This document shows positions 1-63,117 of a stretch of 64,000 bases of DNA, in pieces. The translations under genes were made by a program, and so were the position numbers. Source of the DNA: a virus. The DNA is taken from positions 62,001 to 126,000 of IMG/VR virus record IMGVR_UViG_3300045125_000034. One strand, given 5' to 3'. Below the pieces are notes generated by a model. It was not told the origin of the DNA. It saw only the letters and a list, made by a program, of their open reading frames with translations, and searched no databases. Positions within the stretch are counted from its first letter, which is position 1, and every line of letters starts with the position of its first letter.

Positions 1-789
1 GCCTAAGATTGGAATAAGCCCAGAGACACTATTGGATATGGTTAAGGAACTAGTAGAAGGTGGGGTTGACTTCTATAAAAGAAGATGAAATCATGTCCAA
101 CCCATCATTCTGCCCGCTAGACACTCGGGTGGGTATGATCTCCAATTACTTGGCATCACAATCAAGAAATGTGGTATTTTGCCACACCATAAACTGCGAT
201 CCGCATGTTCTAGAAAGTAGAGTTAGTCGCATACATTCTCTTGGCGGTAATGGAGTACACATCAATGTATGGAGTGGGTATGGTTCATACAACAGCATAC
301 GAAAGATGGATCTGCCGATATACATTCATTTCCAGAGTAGTGGAGCAAAAGTCACAACCAACATTACAAATCAGTTCAGTATTAGTTGGCCTGTCATCTG
401 CAAATTGGCAACAATGATGGGAGTCGATACCATTCAGACGGGAATGGTTGGTGGATACAGCAACGATAATCCCGAAGAAATTCTAGAGTGTGTTCGTATT
501 TTACAACAGGGGAATACTGTCCCTGTCCTGAGTTGCGGATTGCATCCGGGTCTTGTTGATAAGATAACCTCACTAGTAGGTAACGACTATTTGGGCAATG
601 CTGGCGGTTCAATTCACGGACACCCAAATGGAACACTATCGGGTGCTAGAGCAATGCGTCAGGTCCATAGACAAAACTTATGGGGTCGAGTACAATGAGG
701 CAATAGCCAAATGGGGTAAGGTTCAGCCCGAATTCAACATAAAGCAGTTGTATGAAACTGTAGAGTACCAACTAAATTCTAAGGAGTAA
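1..789 (+). CDS. RuBisCO-like protein (RuBisCO large-subunit superfamily), 5' partial
   Basis: The gene is open at the left edge and shows the C-terminal TIM-barrel half of a RuBisCO large-subunit fold. Seen in order: PKIGISPETL, then GGVDF-IKEDE, which aligns with the RuBisCO KxDE loop. The Lys that is carbamylated lies at 78-80 and the Mg-binding Asp and Glu at 84-89. Next come IHFQSSGA (region of the active-site His), TIQTGMVGGY (loop 6, where the catalytic Lys of true RuBisCO is absent), VPVLSCGLHPGL (Ser-Gly-Gly phosphate loop) and GGSIHGHPNGT (Gly-Gly phosphate loop). The loop 6 change and the IHGHP signature fit form IV RuBisCO-like proteins, which act as enolases, isomerases or decarboxylases on sugar phosphates rather than fixing CO2. 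Frames shift near 74 (one extra T) and near 660. The substrate cannot be read from sequence. The gene overlaps the ribosome site of the methyltransferase that follows. Confidence 0.82.
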
Positions 790-796
790 ATGTAAT

Positions 797-1403
797 ATGC
801 AATGGCAAACAGATCTAATAGCAGACATTCGGTTTAATGATCCTAACATAGATGATAGAGATGATGTAACCGGCTTGTTTCTGGCTATGGGTAGACATTT
901 CGAATTTACGAATGACAACCATACAGCATTACAGAAGGCAATAAGTGCCTGTAGAACTCCCCCAAAAACTTTTTGAAATTGGTGTGTGCAGAAATGCATC
1001 ACAGTCATCTACACATACTATAATAAAAAATGTTCCATCGGACGGGGTTTATCTCGGTGTGGATCTTGATGACAAGACATTTTTAAACGACGCATCAAAG
1101 GGTATACACACCATAAAAACATCATCTTCAAACTACGATGAGGTTGTTAATAGATTAACTAGTCTTGGTGTTAAGACTTTGGATTTCATATTCATTGATG
1201 GTTGGCACAGTATAAATCAGGTTCTTAAAGATTGGGAGTATACAAAACTATTGTCTGACGGTGGTGTTGTTGGGTTCCATGATACTCGACTGCATCCGGG
1301 TCCGCACTATTTTATAAACAATCTGAATAGAGATAAGTGGGAAGTACACTCCAATCTTTGCCCCAATGATTGGGGTTTGGGATATTGTAGAAGAAAGGAT
1401 TGA
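797..1403 (+). CDS. Class I SAM-dependent methyltransferase (Methyltransf_24-like)
   Basis: A protein of about 200 residues starting at ATG 797, with AAGGAG six bases before it inside the end of the RuBisCO-like gene. The N-terminal part (MQWQTDLIADIRF) shifts frame near 950. The body then has FEIGVCRNAS (where a glycine-rich SAM loop would be, degenerate here), YLGVDLDD (acidic end of strand 2), DFIFIDGWHS followed by DWEY, and LLSDGGVVGFHDT. The DGxH...D...LLxxGGxxxxHD pattern is typical of small methyltransferases acting on sugars, glycans or natural products. It sits between a RuBisCO-like protein and a sugar epimerase, which suggests a sugar or surface-glycan cassette. That role is inference; the substrate is unknown. 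Confidence 0.72.
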
Positions 1404-1407
1404 TAAC

Positions 1408-2342
1408 TTGAGAAAACTGCATTAGTCACAGGAGCGTCGGGTTTCATCGGCTCAAACTTGGTTGACCATCTTGTTGGTTTGGGGTGGGATGTTGTTGGTA
1501 TAGACAATGAATCTAGCCTAGCCCACGACAAGTTCCACTACAACTCAAAGGCATCATATGTACCAAAGGATGAAGCAGACATCTCTACAGAGAAGCCTTG
1601 GAAGGCATTAGCCAACCATAAGTTTGACTATGTGTTTCATATGGGTGCAGAGTGTCGTATTCAGCAATGCATAGAGAATCCTGCCCTATGCATATCAACT
1701 AATGTTTTAGGTACAGTAAAGACTCTTGAATACGCCGCGAAGATAGGAGCAAAGAGACTTGTGTTCTCGTCCACCTCCTCCATATACTCAGGCTGTGACT
1801 ATGCAGCAGATGAGAACGAAGAGCCGATCTGCATCAATCCCTACGCTTCCACTAAACTTTCGGGAGAGGTCTTCTGCAAGCAGTACAGTATGACTACTGA
1901 GTTGGATACGGTTGTGCTTCGTTACTTCAATGTGTACGGCGAGAGACAGCCAATCCGTGGTTCGTATGCTCCTGTAATCGGTGTGTTTCAACGACAACTA
2001 GCAGAGAGAAGACAGCATTTACAATAGTTGGAGATGGTGAACAGCGTAGAGACTTCTGTAAATGTAAAGGATGTTTGCAGAGCCAATGTTATTGCTGCAA
2101 CAAACGAGGAATACACCCAAAGATACAACGCCGAGGTATTCAATATCGGAACAGGAGTAAACTACTCCGTAAATCAGGTAGCCGATATGGTCTCCCCCAC
2201 CCACAATAGAATAAATCTACCCGCCCGAGATGGCGAGGCTAGAATAACCTTATGTGATTGGGAGAAGGCACAAAATTGGTTGGGGTGGTCCCCACAAATA
2301 CAACTTTCTGATTGGTTATCGGTTGACAAGGCGGCAGTTTAG
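1408..2342 (+). CDS. NAD-dependent nucleotide-sugar epimerase/dehydratase (GalE-like, extended SDR)
   Basis: About 310 residues, probably starting at TTG 1408, four bases after the methyltransferase stop. The N-terminal Rossmann motif GASGFIGSNL binds NAD(P). FHMGAECR, then FSSTSSIY and YASTKLSGE, carry the Ser and the catalytic YxxxK of extended short-chain dehydrogenases. LRYFNVYGERQ is typical of UDP-sugar 4-epimerases and related GDP/dTDP-sugar enzymes. RDF-NVKDVCRANV and FNIGTG give the C-terminal substrate-binding part. One base is missing in the A-run just after the start and a frame change occurs near 2020. It would interconvert or modify a nucleotide sugar, probably for host surface remodelling or glycosylation of phage components. 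The exact sugar is not assigned. Confidence 0.85.
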
Positions 2343-2356: not shown

Positions 2357-3796
2357 ATGGTAGCCGATAGAACCGAACTAATCATCCTCCGTTCCCTACT
2401 CCACAACGAAGAGTACGGTCGGAAGGTTCTCCCCTTTCTTCAGCCCGAGTACTTCACCGAACGCGACGAGCGTGTGGTGTTTGATGCTGTTGCCGAGTTC
2501 TTCAGCAAGTACAACAAGCCCCCGAGTGTGGAGACTCTGCTGATTGACTTGGGCAAGAAGGATGACCTAAACGAAGCCGAGTTCAAGAGCGTACAGACTG
2601 TCATTCGCTCCTTGGCAGACAACACTACAGTAGATGATAAGTGGCTCCTTGATACCACAGAGACCTTCTGTAAGGACAAGGCTGTGTATAACGCCATCAT
2701 GGAGTCCATTCAGATCATTGATGGCAAGAGCCAAAGGACTGCCAATGCCATCCCCGAGGTGCTGTCCAAGGCTCTGTCGGTGTCGTTTGATACCCACATC
2801 GGTCACGACTTTATTGAGGATGCCGAGAAGCGATACGACTTCTACCACACCGTAGAGAAGCGTATTCCGTTTGATCTTGAACTGATGAACAAGATCACTA
2901 ACAACGGAACCCCTACAAGACCCTGAATGTGTGTCTCGCGGGCACGGGCGTGGGCAAGTCTCTGTTCCTCTGCCACCATGCTGCCAACTGCCTGATGCAG
3001 AGTAAGAATGTGTTGTACATCACCTGCGAGATGGCAGAGGAGCGTATTGCAGAACGCATTGACGCTAACCTCATGGACATCACTCCTAGACGATCTGAAG
3101 TGCCTGCCCAAGGACATCTATGACCGCAAGATCAAGCGTATCATGGATCAGACTACAGGCAAACTCATTGTCAAGGAGTACCCGACAGCCACAGCCAATG
3201 TGATGCATTTCAAGCATCTGTTGGACGAACTGCGGCTCAAGCGAAACTTCAAGCCCGAGATCGTGTTCATTGACTACCTGAATATCTGTGCGTCAAGCCG
3301 TTTCAAGGCGGGAGCAAATGTCAACTCCTACACCTATGTGAAGGCTATCGCAGAAGAACTCCGTGGTCTAGCCGTGGAGACAGGCATCCCGATCTTCACC
3401 GCTACACAGACCAATCGTCAGGGCTTCTCAAGCACCGATGTTGAACTGACTGACACAAGCGAGTCTTTCGGTCTACCGCAGACTGCAGACTTCATGTTTG
3501 CCTTGGTCTCCACCGAGGAACTTGATGGTCTTGGTCAGATCATGGTGAAGCAGTTGAAGAACCGTTATGCGGACCCTGCCTCTAACCGACGCTTCGTTAT
3601 TGGTATTGACCGCAGCAAGATGAAGTTGTTTGATCTTGACCCCTCTGCACAGAATAACATTATCCTAGAGGGTGGGCGTGGAGGCAAGGAGGAAGAGGAA
3701 GAGGACAACGGAGGTTTCAAGACTTTCCGTGAGAGGATGAATGACAAGTTCGACAAAAAGAAGCGGATTTCGCGGATTGGTCTTGACAGCCGATAA
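2357..3796 (+). CDS. 41: Replicative DNA helicase, gp41/DnaB-like
   Basis: About 480 residues, starting MVADRTELIILRSLL, which matches the usual N-terminus of T4-like gp41. The N-terminal helical domain runs to about residue 170. The RecA-like domain has Walker A GTGVGKS near 2950, VLYITCEMAEERIAERID (motif 1a region), Walker B IVFIDYLNI near 3270, ATQTNR (sensor-type motif) and a C-terminal arginine region (GIDRSKMKLF). It is the hexameric 5'-3' helicase that unwinds the fork and works with the gp61-type primase encoded at 13597. Frame shifts occur near 2920 and 3090 while the family match continues, so it is read here as one gene. It has its own consensus promoter and no ribosome-binding site. 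Confidence 0.92.
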
Positions 3797-43711: not shown

Positions 43712-49173
<5,462 letters not shown>

Positions 49174-61219: not shown

Positions 61220-63117
61220 CTAGTGTCCTGACGGAATGTTGACTCTGGTTCCTACCCCAATTGTGCTTCTTGTCGTAGTCGATCAGGATGATCTGATTTC
61301 TTCTTGCTGCAATATCTTGAACCGCAGGAACCACCGTGATCTTGATTTCTGAGTCTGTGGCAGGCTTTATGTATTCAACCTTGAAGTTGTTGAGGACTAT
61401 CTTTCCTGTATCATAGTTGACTTTTCCTGCCTTGCTGCTGATATAGACCTTTTCTGTGCCTACAACCTTGTAGATTCTCATGTTTCCTCTACCATCGTCA
61501 TCCAAGTAGCAATCTACTGTGGGCTTGACTATGGAACTGCTTGTCGAATCTTTGTACCCAAACACCGAAGAGGATACAACAGGCTGATACCCGTCTATTG
61601 GGTGTAATAGTGGGTTGTCGAAAGATATTGTGTATGGTGCAGAATACGAGAGCAGGGGTTCGATTCTCTTGTTCAGACGAAGCGTGACTCTAGACCCTGT
61701 TATTGCTTGATTTGTATTGTCAATCGCGTTTAGGAATTTGGACATCTTGAAGTTCTTGTTGAACTTGGAAAGATTGTCATTTTCAAAGGCTTGTGTTGTG
61801 TTTCGGATGAACGAAATCAAACCATCGGGACTGAGATTTGTTCTATCCAAGTTGTAGGATGATACTGAATTGAATTCCAAGAAGAGGAAGTCGGGGTCCA
61901 CTATCTCGGGGGTGATACCAACCAAGTTCCTCTTACTCAATACAGACTTCTCTAGAGCCAACTTCTCAAGTGTACTGATACGCTTTCCGTTCTTTGGCTT
62001 GATTGAGATGAAGACTTTACCATATGACGGTGGGTCGTTCTGCTCGCCCCCCAAACCAAGAATGAATCAATACCGTCAGAGAACTCTCTGACAAGTATGG
62101 TCTTGTAGTCTTCTTCGGTTACTGCTCTCTCTTGTGCCTGATAGTTTCTTGGTGCGTAGTACTTGATGGAGTCTATACTTTCGGGAGTTGTTCCGCCGTA
62201 AGAAACTCCTTGCTTGTTGTAGTCATTTAGAACGGGAGTGATGCTTGCAACATTACCCATGAGCAACGCATTTCCGCTTGAAGATCCGGCAAAGGTAAAG
62301 TTGGTGCAGCCGTTTGCCTCTTCTCCGTTAGTCTGAACATATTGAACTGATATGAGGTTTCCGTTTCTTGGACGCTTGCCCAAGATTCCGTCGCCAAAGT
62401 AGATTTCAAATCTTCCGTCTTCAGTTTCTTGTAGGAAGTAGGCTAGGGATTCGCCGTTTAGCCCGTTGATGTCTGTAGCCTTGAACCACACATTAACAAG
62501 TCCTGTGGTGTTTGTGGTTGACTCTTGAACTCTTACCTGTAGGGTGTCAACATCAATCTTGTTGCTCGGTAGAATGAACTTCTGCGTTGGGTCAAAACTG
62601 TTGACAACAAAGGTGTAACTTTTTAGTGTTCCTTCGTATAGTTTGATTCCCTTGACTACGGGGGTGTTATTCACAACCTGAACCTTATACGAGTCCAAAG
62701 AAACAAAGTTGTAGGTGTTCTTGCCCAATCTTCCTGTAAAGACATCTCCGCGATTTATGAATGCCGATCCGTTTATGGTAGAAGACAAAACACTACTGTT
62801 ACTGTTGAAGGTTATGTCCATCTCTATCTTGGAAGATTTTACTGACCTCGGAGTATAACCCAAGTGCTTTGCTATTGATACCGCACTCTGACGCAGAACA
62901 GCCGAATCCAAGAACGCTTCGTTTGCTACCATGTTTGCGTAGAAAGCTCTGATAGTGGGTGTTGTAAGCAAGAACATCCAAGAGGACATTCATGCCTGCT
63001 CCTTCGAAGTCGTAATCCTTGAACTGTTCTTGTGTTCTCAGGTAATCTTTGAGGTTTGTCTTGATGGCATCGAAGTCCAAACCATCTATGCGGAGATTTG
63101 CGTTATTGGATAGCCAT
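61220..63117 (-). CDS. 6: Baseplate wedge protein gp6
   Basis: About 630 residues. The N-terminus NANLRIDGLDFDAIKTNLKD, followed by YLRTQEQFKDYDFEGAGMNV and LLDVLAYNTHYQSF, is diagnostic for gp6 of T4-like cyanophages. Then NMVANEAFLDSAVLRQSAV, SIAKHLGYTPRSVKSSK, YFGDGILGKRPRNGNLISVQ, ERAVTEEDYKTILVREF, YGKVFISIKPKNGKRIS and, at the end, VGTRVNIPSGH (stop TAG 61220-61222). gp6 forms the core ring of baseplate wedges. The most likely start is ATG 63117 (MAIQ-NANLRID after correcting one extra T). Frame shifts near 62980, 62050 and 61250. Confidence 0.88.

Follow-up and report, generated by a model that had tools for sequence, protein, structure and literature searches.

The presence of a RuBisCO-superfamily gene in a T4-like phage raises the question of what a virus gains from a fold whose relatives with an assigned function are, to our knowledge, only carbon-fixing, salvage or catabolic enzymes. 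Here, we addressed this question for the gene of a RuBisCO-like protein (RLP) found at the start of a 64,000-nucleotide stretch of viral DNA (hereafter, the window), whose first base is position 62001 of a 145,204-base IMG/VR record. As set out below, the RuBisCO fold has probably been recruited by phages for making an unusual sugar-type building block.

Identity of the RLP gene and its neighbors

The C-terminal (catalytic) part of the RLP gene occupied positions 1..789 of the plus strand of the window, distributed over three reading frames (about 1-85, 57-695 and 580-786). Positions 60-698 matched the Pfam RuBisCO_large family (PF00016) with an E value of 8.7e-20 (71.6 bits, cut-off 30.1), and archaeal RuBisCO structures were matched at 3e-16; the superfamily membership proposed in a first-pass annotation of this DNA is hence near certain. 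The remaining pieces lay in the other frames, at 1-85 and 580-789. That the window opens inside the gene was also confirmed, as leftward extension placed its start 469 bases upstream (L003:9532, L003 being the region of the record upstream of the window and its continuation) and recovered a weak N-terminal domain (PF02788; 16.3 bits, below the cut-off of 20.7). In an intact relative (L036), this domain scored 21.0 bits, and PF00016 was matched with an E value of 1.9e-33.

The pieces of the window protein showed a 76-94% match to intact viral relatives, which are encoded on other viral contigs in unbroken frames of about 400 aa. Because these full-length relatives are intact and other genes of the record are broken too, the frame breaks in the RLP gene are most likely local errors of a noisy assembly. 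Indeed, genes all along the window (1-64000) were split over frames, in a manner resembling uncorrected long-read assemblies, and gene counts in this record, as well as absences from it, are therefore unreliable.

Downstream on the plus strand, the predicted neighbors were recovered by Pfam. These were a Methyltransf_24-type methyltransferase (797..1403, two frames; PF13578, E 9.6e-7, and blastp to the family termed MT24 here), an NAD-dependent sugar-nucleotide epimerase/dehydratase (about 1410..2342, two frames; PF01370, E 3.4e-28, and blastp) and a DnaB-like, T4 gp41-type replicative helicase (2357..3796, several frames; PF00772 and PF03796; phrog_19, E 1.2e-51). The helicase is a phage core gene and marks the edge of the sugar island.

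The RLP gene is carried by T4-like phages

Comparison with PHROGs identified UvsX (phrog_97), the gp41-type helicase (phrog_19) and gp6-type baseplate wedge proteins (phrog_219) in the record, in agreement with the T4-like affiliation initially assigned. Tail fiber genes were present as well; those matching collagen-like minor tail families lay on the minus strand at window positions 43828-46240. A link to cyanophages, which had also been drawn, was not sustained, as psbA was looked for in the record and not found.

The noisy contig with its many broken frames, together with the fact that neither the gp23 capsid nor the gp20 portal gene was found in this partial record, could point to a bacterial gene fused to phage DNA by misassembly, or to host contamination. 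However, an independent 18-kb contig (L009) repeated the gene order, i.e., UvsX, a glycosyltransferase and further genes, nucleotidyltransferase, cupin, RLP, a protein resembling glycerophosphodiester phosphodiesterases (GDPD-like), epimerase and DnaB helicase. Moreover, the closest relatives in the tree were all viral, and the RLP gene occurred together with T4 gp23 on eight other viral contigs (G003, G007, G019, G020, G029, G030, G033 and G038), six of which also carried gp20 (G003, G007, G019, G020, G029 and G038). We therefore regard such an artifact as vanishingly improbable, and the chimeric assembly considered at the outset was not borne out. The gp23-bearing RLP contigs included records of 113, 173, 187 and 327 kb, and gp23, gp20 and RLP were likewise found on a single contig in the relative G049:C58. 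Taken together, these observations show that the RLP gene is truly virus-borne and common to T4-like phages. In the species genome set, one RLP contig was binned into a Sphingobacteriales MAG (L072; GTDB contig JAAXIF010000028, 142 kb); it carries gp23 and gp20 and is itself a T4-like phage.

Distribution and selection

A scan of IMG/VR returned 220 stretches encoding relatives, and a second query returned 247, both numbers being lower bounds for overlapping sets. We collected 165 full-length viral proteins, which clustered into 71 groups at 90% identity. Eight pairs gave a finite dN/dS, which was 0.04-0.07 in seven of them and 0.23 in the remaining, very close pair; viral RLPs are thus under strong purifying selection. 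Neither blastn nor tblastn against 50,697 GenBank phages gave a match, PHROGs held no family for the RLP, and a structure search of BFVD returned generic barrels only (best TM about 0.5) and no RuBisCO-like fold. Cellular relatives were few, and comprised Pelagibacterales single cells (41-58%), Nanoarchaeia and Pacearchaeota (43%), a Verrucomicrobiia MAG (42%), Elusimicrobia (40%), Azospirillum (38%) and three Legionella (34-36%). On inspection of their neighbors, several SAR11 copies were judged to be cellular from the housekeeping genes around them.

A distinct clade of the RuBisCO superfamily

In a tree of 63 proteins, the viral and cellular members (viral, SAR11, Legionella, Nanoarchaeota and others) formed a single clade with 100/100 support on a branch of 1.4. 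Of the references, which comprised no form II, IV-Photo or GOS sequences, the form I and form III enzymes, MtnW and the OiaX/acid-sugar group all branched outside this clade, and a tree from which three long rows had been removed was in agreement. The window protein fell inside a five-member viral subclade (100/100). The AlphaFold2 model of a relative (L005, which heads alignment A1) was obtained with a pLDDT of 85.6 and a pTM of 0.85, and resembled form III RuBisCO from Pyrococcus and Thermococcus, including 2d69, with a TM of about 0.8.

The NCBIfam models for carboxylases, MtnW and OiaX all matched far below their cut-offs. In particular, the best match of a clade member (L007) was to the form III model TIGR03326 (score 186, cut-off 497), while the MtnW models NF007095 and TIGR03332 gave 161 against 409 and 133 against 514, respectively, and the OiaX model NF042437 gave 151 (cut-off 700). 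In view of these scores, an assignment to methionine salvage or to a known acid-sugar function, the activities named initially for form IV proteins, is not supported. Placement in the RuBisCO phylogeny, which had been proposed as a check, shows a distinct superfamily clade that occurs in T4-like phages, in SAR11 and, sporadically, in other bacteria and in archaea.

The active site retains the metal center and has lost carboxylase residues

Fifty clade members were aligned for comparison of the active site. K175, K177, K201, D203 and E204 were kept in all 50, whereas E60 (to Gly), T65 (to Asn), N123 (to Gly), H294 (to Gln) and the loop-6 K334 (to Tyr) were replaced in all 50. In addition, R295 was replaced by Lys or Ser in all rows except one, which had Arg, and G380 was replaced by Cys. 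At position H327, every cellular row had His, and roughly one in three of the 165 viral proteins had Gln. The window RLP itself showed the KEDE and KPK motifs, the SCG and GG-HGHP loops and a Tyr in place of the loop-6 Lys, which is the form-IV-like active site described initially. The accompanying claim that both phosphate loops are kept was correct for the loop backbones only, since R295 and, in many viruses, H327 are replaced at the second site. By these residues, the Lys carbamate/Mg metal center is intact, loop 6 is without the Lys on which carboxylation depends, and the second phosphate site is altered. With seven catalytic or substrate residues replaced, including the loop-6 Lys, the protein is not a carboxylase; the changes at H294 (Gln) and R295 (Lys/Ser) mean that the usual enolization geometry may also differ.

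These features set the clade against each of the characterized groups. With archaeal form III RuBisCO (TIGR03326; PDB 2d69/2cwx and 3a12) it shares the fold, K175/K177, the carbamylated K201 with D203/E204 and the GG phosphate loop, but, unlike form III, it lacks E60, T65, N123, H294, R295 and K334, lies in glycan operons and gives no sign of a carboxylase. As in the form IV enolase of 2,3-diketo-5-methylthiopentyl-1-phosphate (MtnW/YkrW; PDB 2oek and 2zvi), the Mg-carbamate is kept and the loop-6 Lys lost; however, the clade differs from MtnW in keeping KPK and in lacking H294, a residue still present in MtnW, and no methionine-salvage neighbors were recognized. OiaX and other acid-sugar RLPs belong to the same superfamily, and action on sugar-like phosphates is probable here too, but they keep H294/R295 and a Lys at the loop-6 column, which the clade does not, and several of them adjoin four-carbon acid sugar kinases, again in contrast to the clade.

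The RLP gene belongs to a small operon within glycan-synthesis islands

On the window's contig, a GDPD-like gene (L003 6975-7514), a nucleotidyltransferase gene (L003 8429-9196) and a cupin gene (L003 9237-9545) preceded the RLP gene (L003 9532-10786). The cupin was found before the RLP in many loci, commonly overlapping it. The nucleotidyltransferase is NTP_transf_3-like and related to mannose-1-P, glucose-1-P and GlmU-type enzymes, and fitted no assigned subfamily, all its NCBIfam scores being far below cut-off. It lay within five genes of the RLP in 82 of 90 viral loci and, among well-flanked loci (four or more genes on each side of the RLP), in 65/67 viral and 9/9 cellular ones. This family accounted for 81 of 797 near viral genes versus none of 1020 farther ones, a comparison for which a P value is indicative only, given that genes are not independent. 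Furthermore, the linkage recurred in SAR11, Legionella, Nanoarchaeota and Elusimicrobia.

The GDPD-like protein, of roughly 150 residues with conserved His, Glu and Asp, was present in 59 of the 90 viral loci. It matched GDPD sequences weakly; its model was confident (pLDDT 97.7), and a Foldseek search with it gave nothing below an E value of 0.1, with GDPDs at ranks 1, 2, 6 and 7. Complete GDPD genes occurred near the RLP in two cellular loci. MT24 methyltransferases were near the RLP in 34/90 viral loci. In four SAR11 loci (L063, L065, L066 and L068), the GDPD-like, nucleotidyltransferase and RLP genes came after a gene that grouped with ThyX-like proteins of phages (cluster c17); the RLP gene itself lay between two different nucleotidyltransferases.

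Many glycosyltransferase-like genes were present in the viral islands, and WavE-type genes were near or adjoining the RLP in several viral and cellular lineages. On the window's contig, a run of glycosyltransferase-like genes (L003 4250-8481) extended from UvsX to the RLP operon; Pfam coverage of its relatives was low. In one SAR11 locus (L057), the RLP was beside Glycos_transf_4, O-antigen ligase and GT1 genes, with a weak flippase match. Each of three Legionella genomes had a single LicD gene, which lay about 1 kb from the RLP; in evolutionary terms, the three amount to one observation. LicD was not found in the viral records searched, and the viral transferase may therefore differ. The presence of LicD and WavE suggests that a phospho or sugar group is transferred onto LPS-like material.

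Taken together, these data show that the RLP gene goes with a nucleotidyltransferase, a cupin and often the GDPD-like gene in a small operon within glycan-synthesis islands. A pathway role for the putative enzyme is well supported by this gene linkage, and the role in an unusual sugar that had been considered plausible is much strengthened by what lies upstream, namely the nucleotidyltransferase, cupin and GDPD-like genes and the glycosyltransferases.

Proposed function and alternatives

The reaction, substrate and final target of the pathway are what we infer from the active site and the neighboring genes. In the proposed scheme, the Mg-carbamate would take a proton next to the ketone of a phosphorylated, sugar-like substrate, leading to enolization or isomerization without CO2 addition, and the cupin may act on a related isomer or epimer. 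The adjoining nucleotidyltransferase would then activate the phosphorylated product as an NDP or CDP derivative, and glycosyl- or phospho-transferases of the WavE or LicD type would place the activated unit on a surface glycan. The most likely use for the phage would be a change of the host envelope during infection, e.g., to block competing phages. We lean slightly towards this reading as a whole.

A functional, form III-like phage carboxylase fixing CO2 in the host would be in line with TIGR03326 as the top family model, with archaeal form III as the closest folds and with the retained Lys, Asp and Glu residues. Nevertheless, every row compared has five active-site residues replaced, only one row keeps R295, and G380 is Cys; the form III score is far below its cut-off, and no Calvin-cycle genes were recognized near the RLP, which renders carbon fixation highly improbable. 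A catabolic enzyme, either a methionine-salvage enolase (MtnW) or an acid-sugar enzyme of the OiaX type, is improbable as well. Although both models matched clade members over most of their length (E 1e-32 to 1e-59), their scores are far under the cut-offs, the clade is separate from both in the tree and its active-site residues are unlike either. In addition, plasmid RLP relatives adjoin mtnX or a four-carbon acid sugar kinase, neither of which was recognized at clade loci.

The same operon chemistry could also serve to place the product on phage DNA or virion proteins rather than on the host envelope. T4 glucosylates its own DNA, which provides a precedent, and the island is located among T4-like replication genes (the UvsX, gp41 and gp44 region). 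Cellular members, however, are found in surface-polysaccharide loci with O-antigen ligase, WavE and LicD; the envelope is therefore favored as the target, and we consider modification of DNA or virion proteins rather unlikely, if far from negligible.

A large clade linked by its operon to nucleotide-sugar activation would bring a biosynthetic function to the superfamily. Beyond the preferred envelope reading, it is conceivable, at slightly less than even chances, that the clade represents a biosynthetic branch of the RuBisCO fold which makes a new nucleotide-activated, sugar-like unit of surface glycans by a reaction as yet undescribed in RuBisCO relatives and is spread in natural waters mainly by T4-like phages. 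SAR11 ranks among the ocean's most abundant bacterial groups; being present in SAR11 and in hundreds of uncultured phages, the clade may thus affect cell-surface change by marine phages and their hosts.

Relation to earlier reports

The statement that RuBisCO family members were not known in phages proved too strong, because viral rbcL genes had been reported before, namely from Great Salt Lake (PMC8506154) and, as an 'RbcL-like' protein, from landfills, in a study that saw rbcL in IMG/VR as well (PMC12607003). These are likewise RuBisCO-family genes on viral contigs, but they were presented as auxiliary genes for carbon fixation, and the main texts contain no operon or active-site analysis. 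In this respect, our results call for caution: an 'rbcL' on a viral contig is not to be taken as phage carbon fixation. No account of the operon or of a glycan role for the clade was found in the literature searched, which covered few subscription journals, and within it the conserved operon appears to be undescribed. Ocean RuBisCO homologues that fell into none of the known clades were noted in 2007 (PMC1821046), and the name 'GOS' is in use for a form IV group (PMC10173188). This group, ocean-derived and with no function described, could well be the present clade, which is carried by SAR11 and marine phages; the two are likened here by description only.
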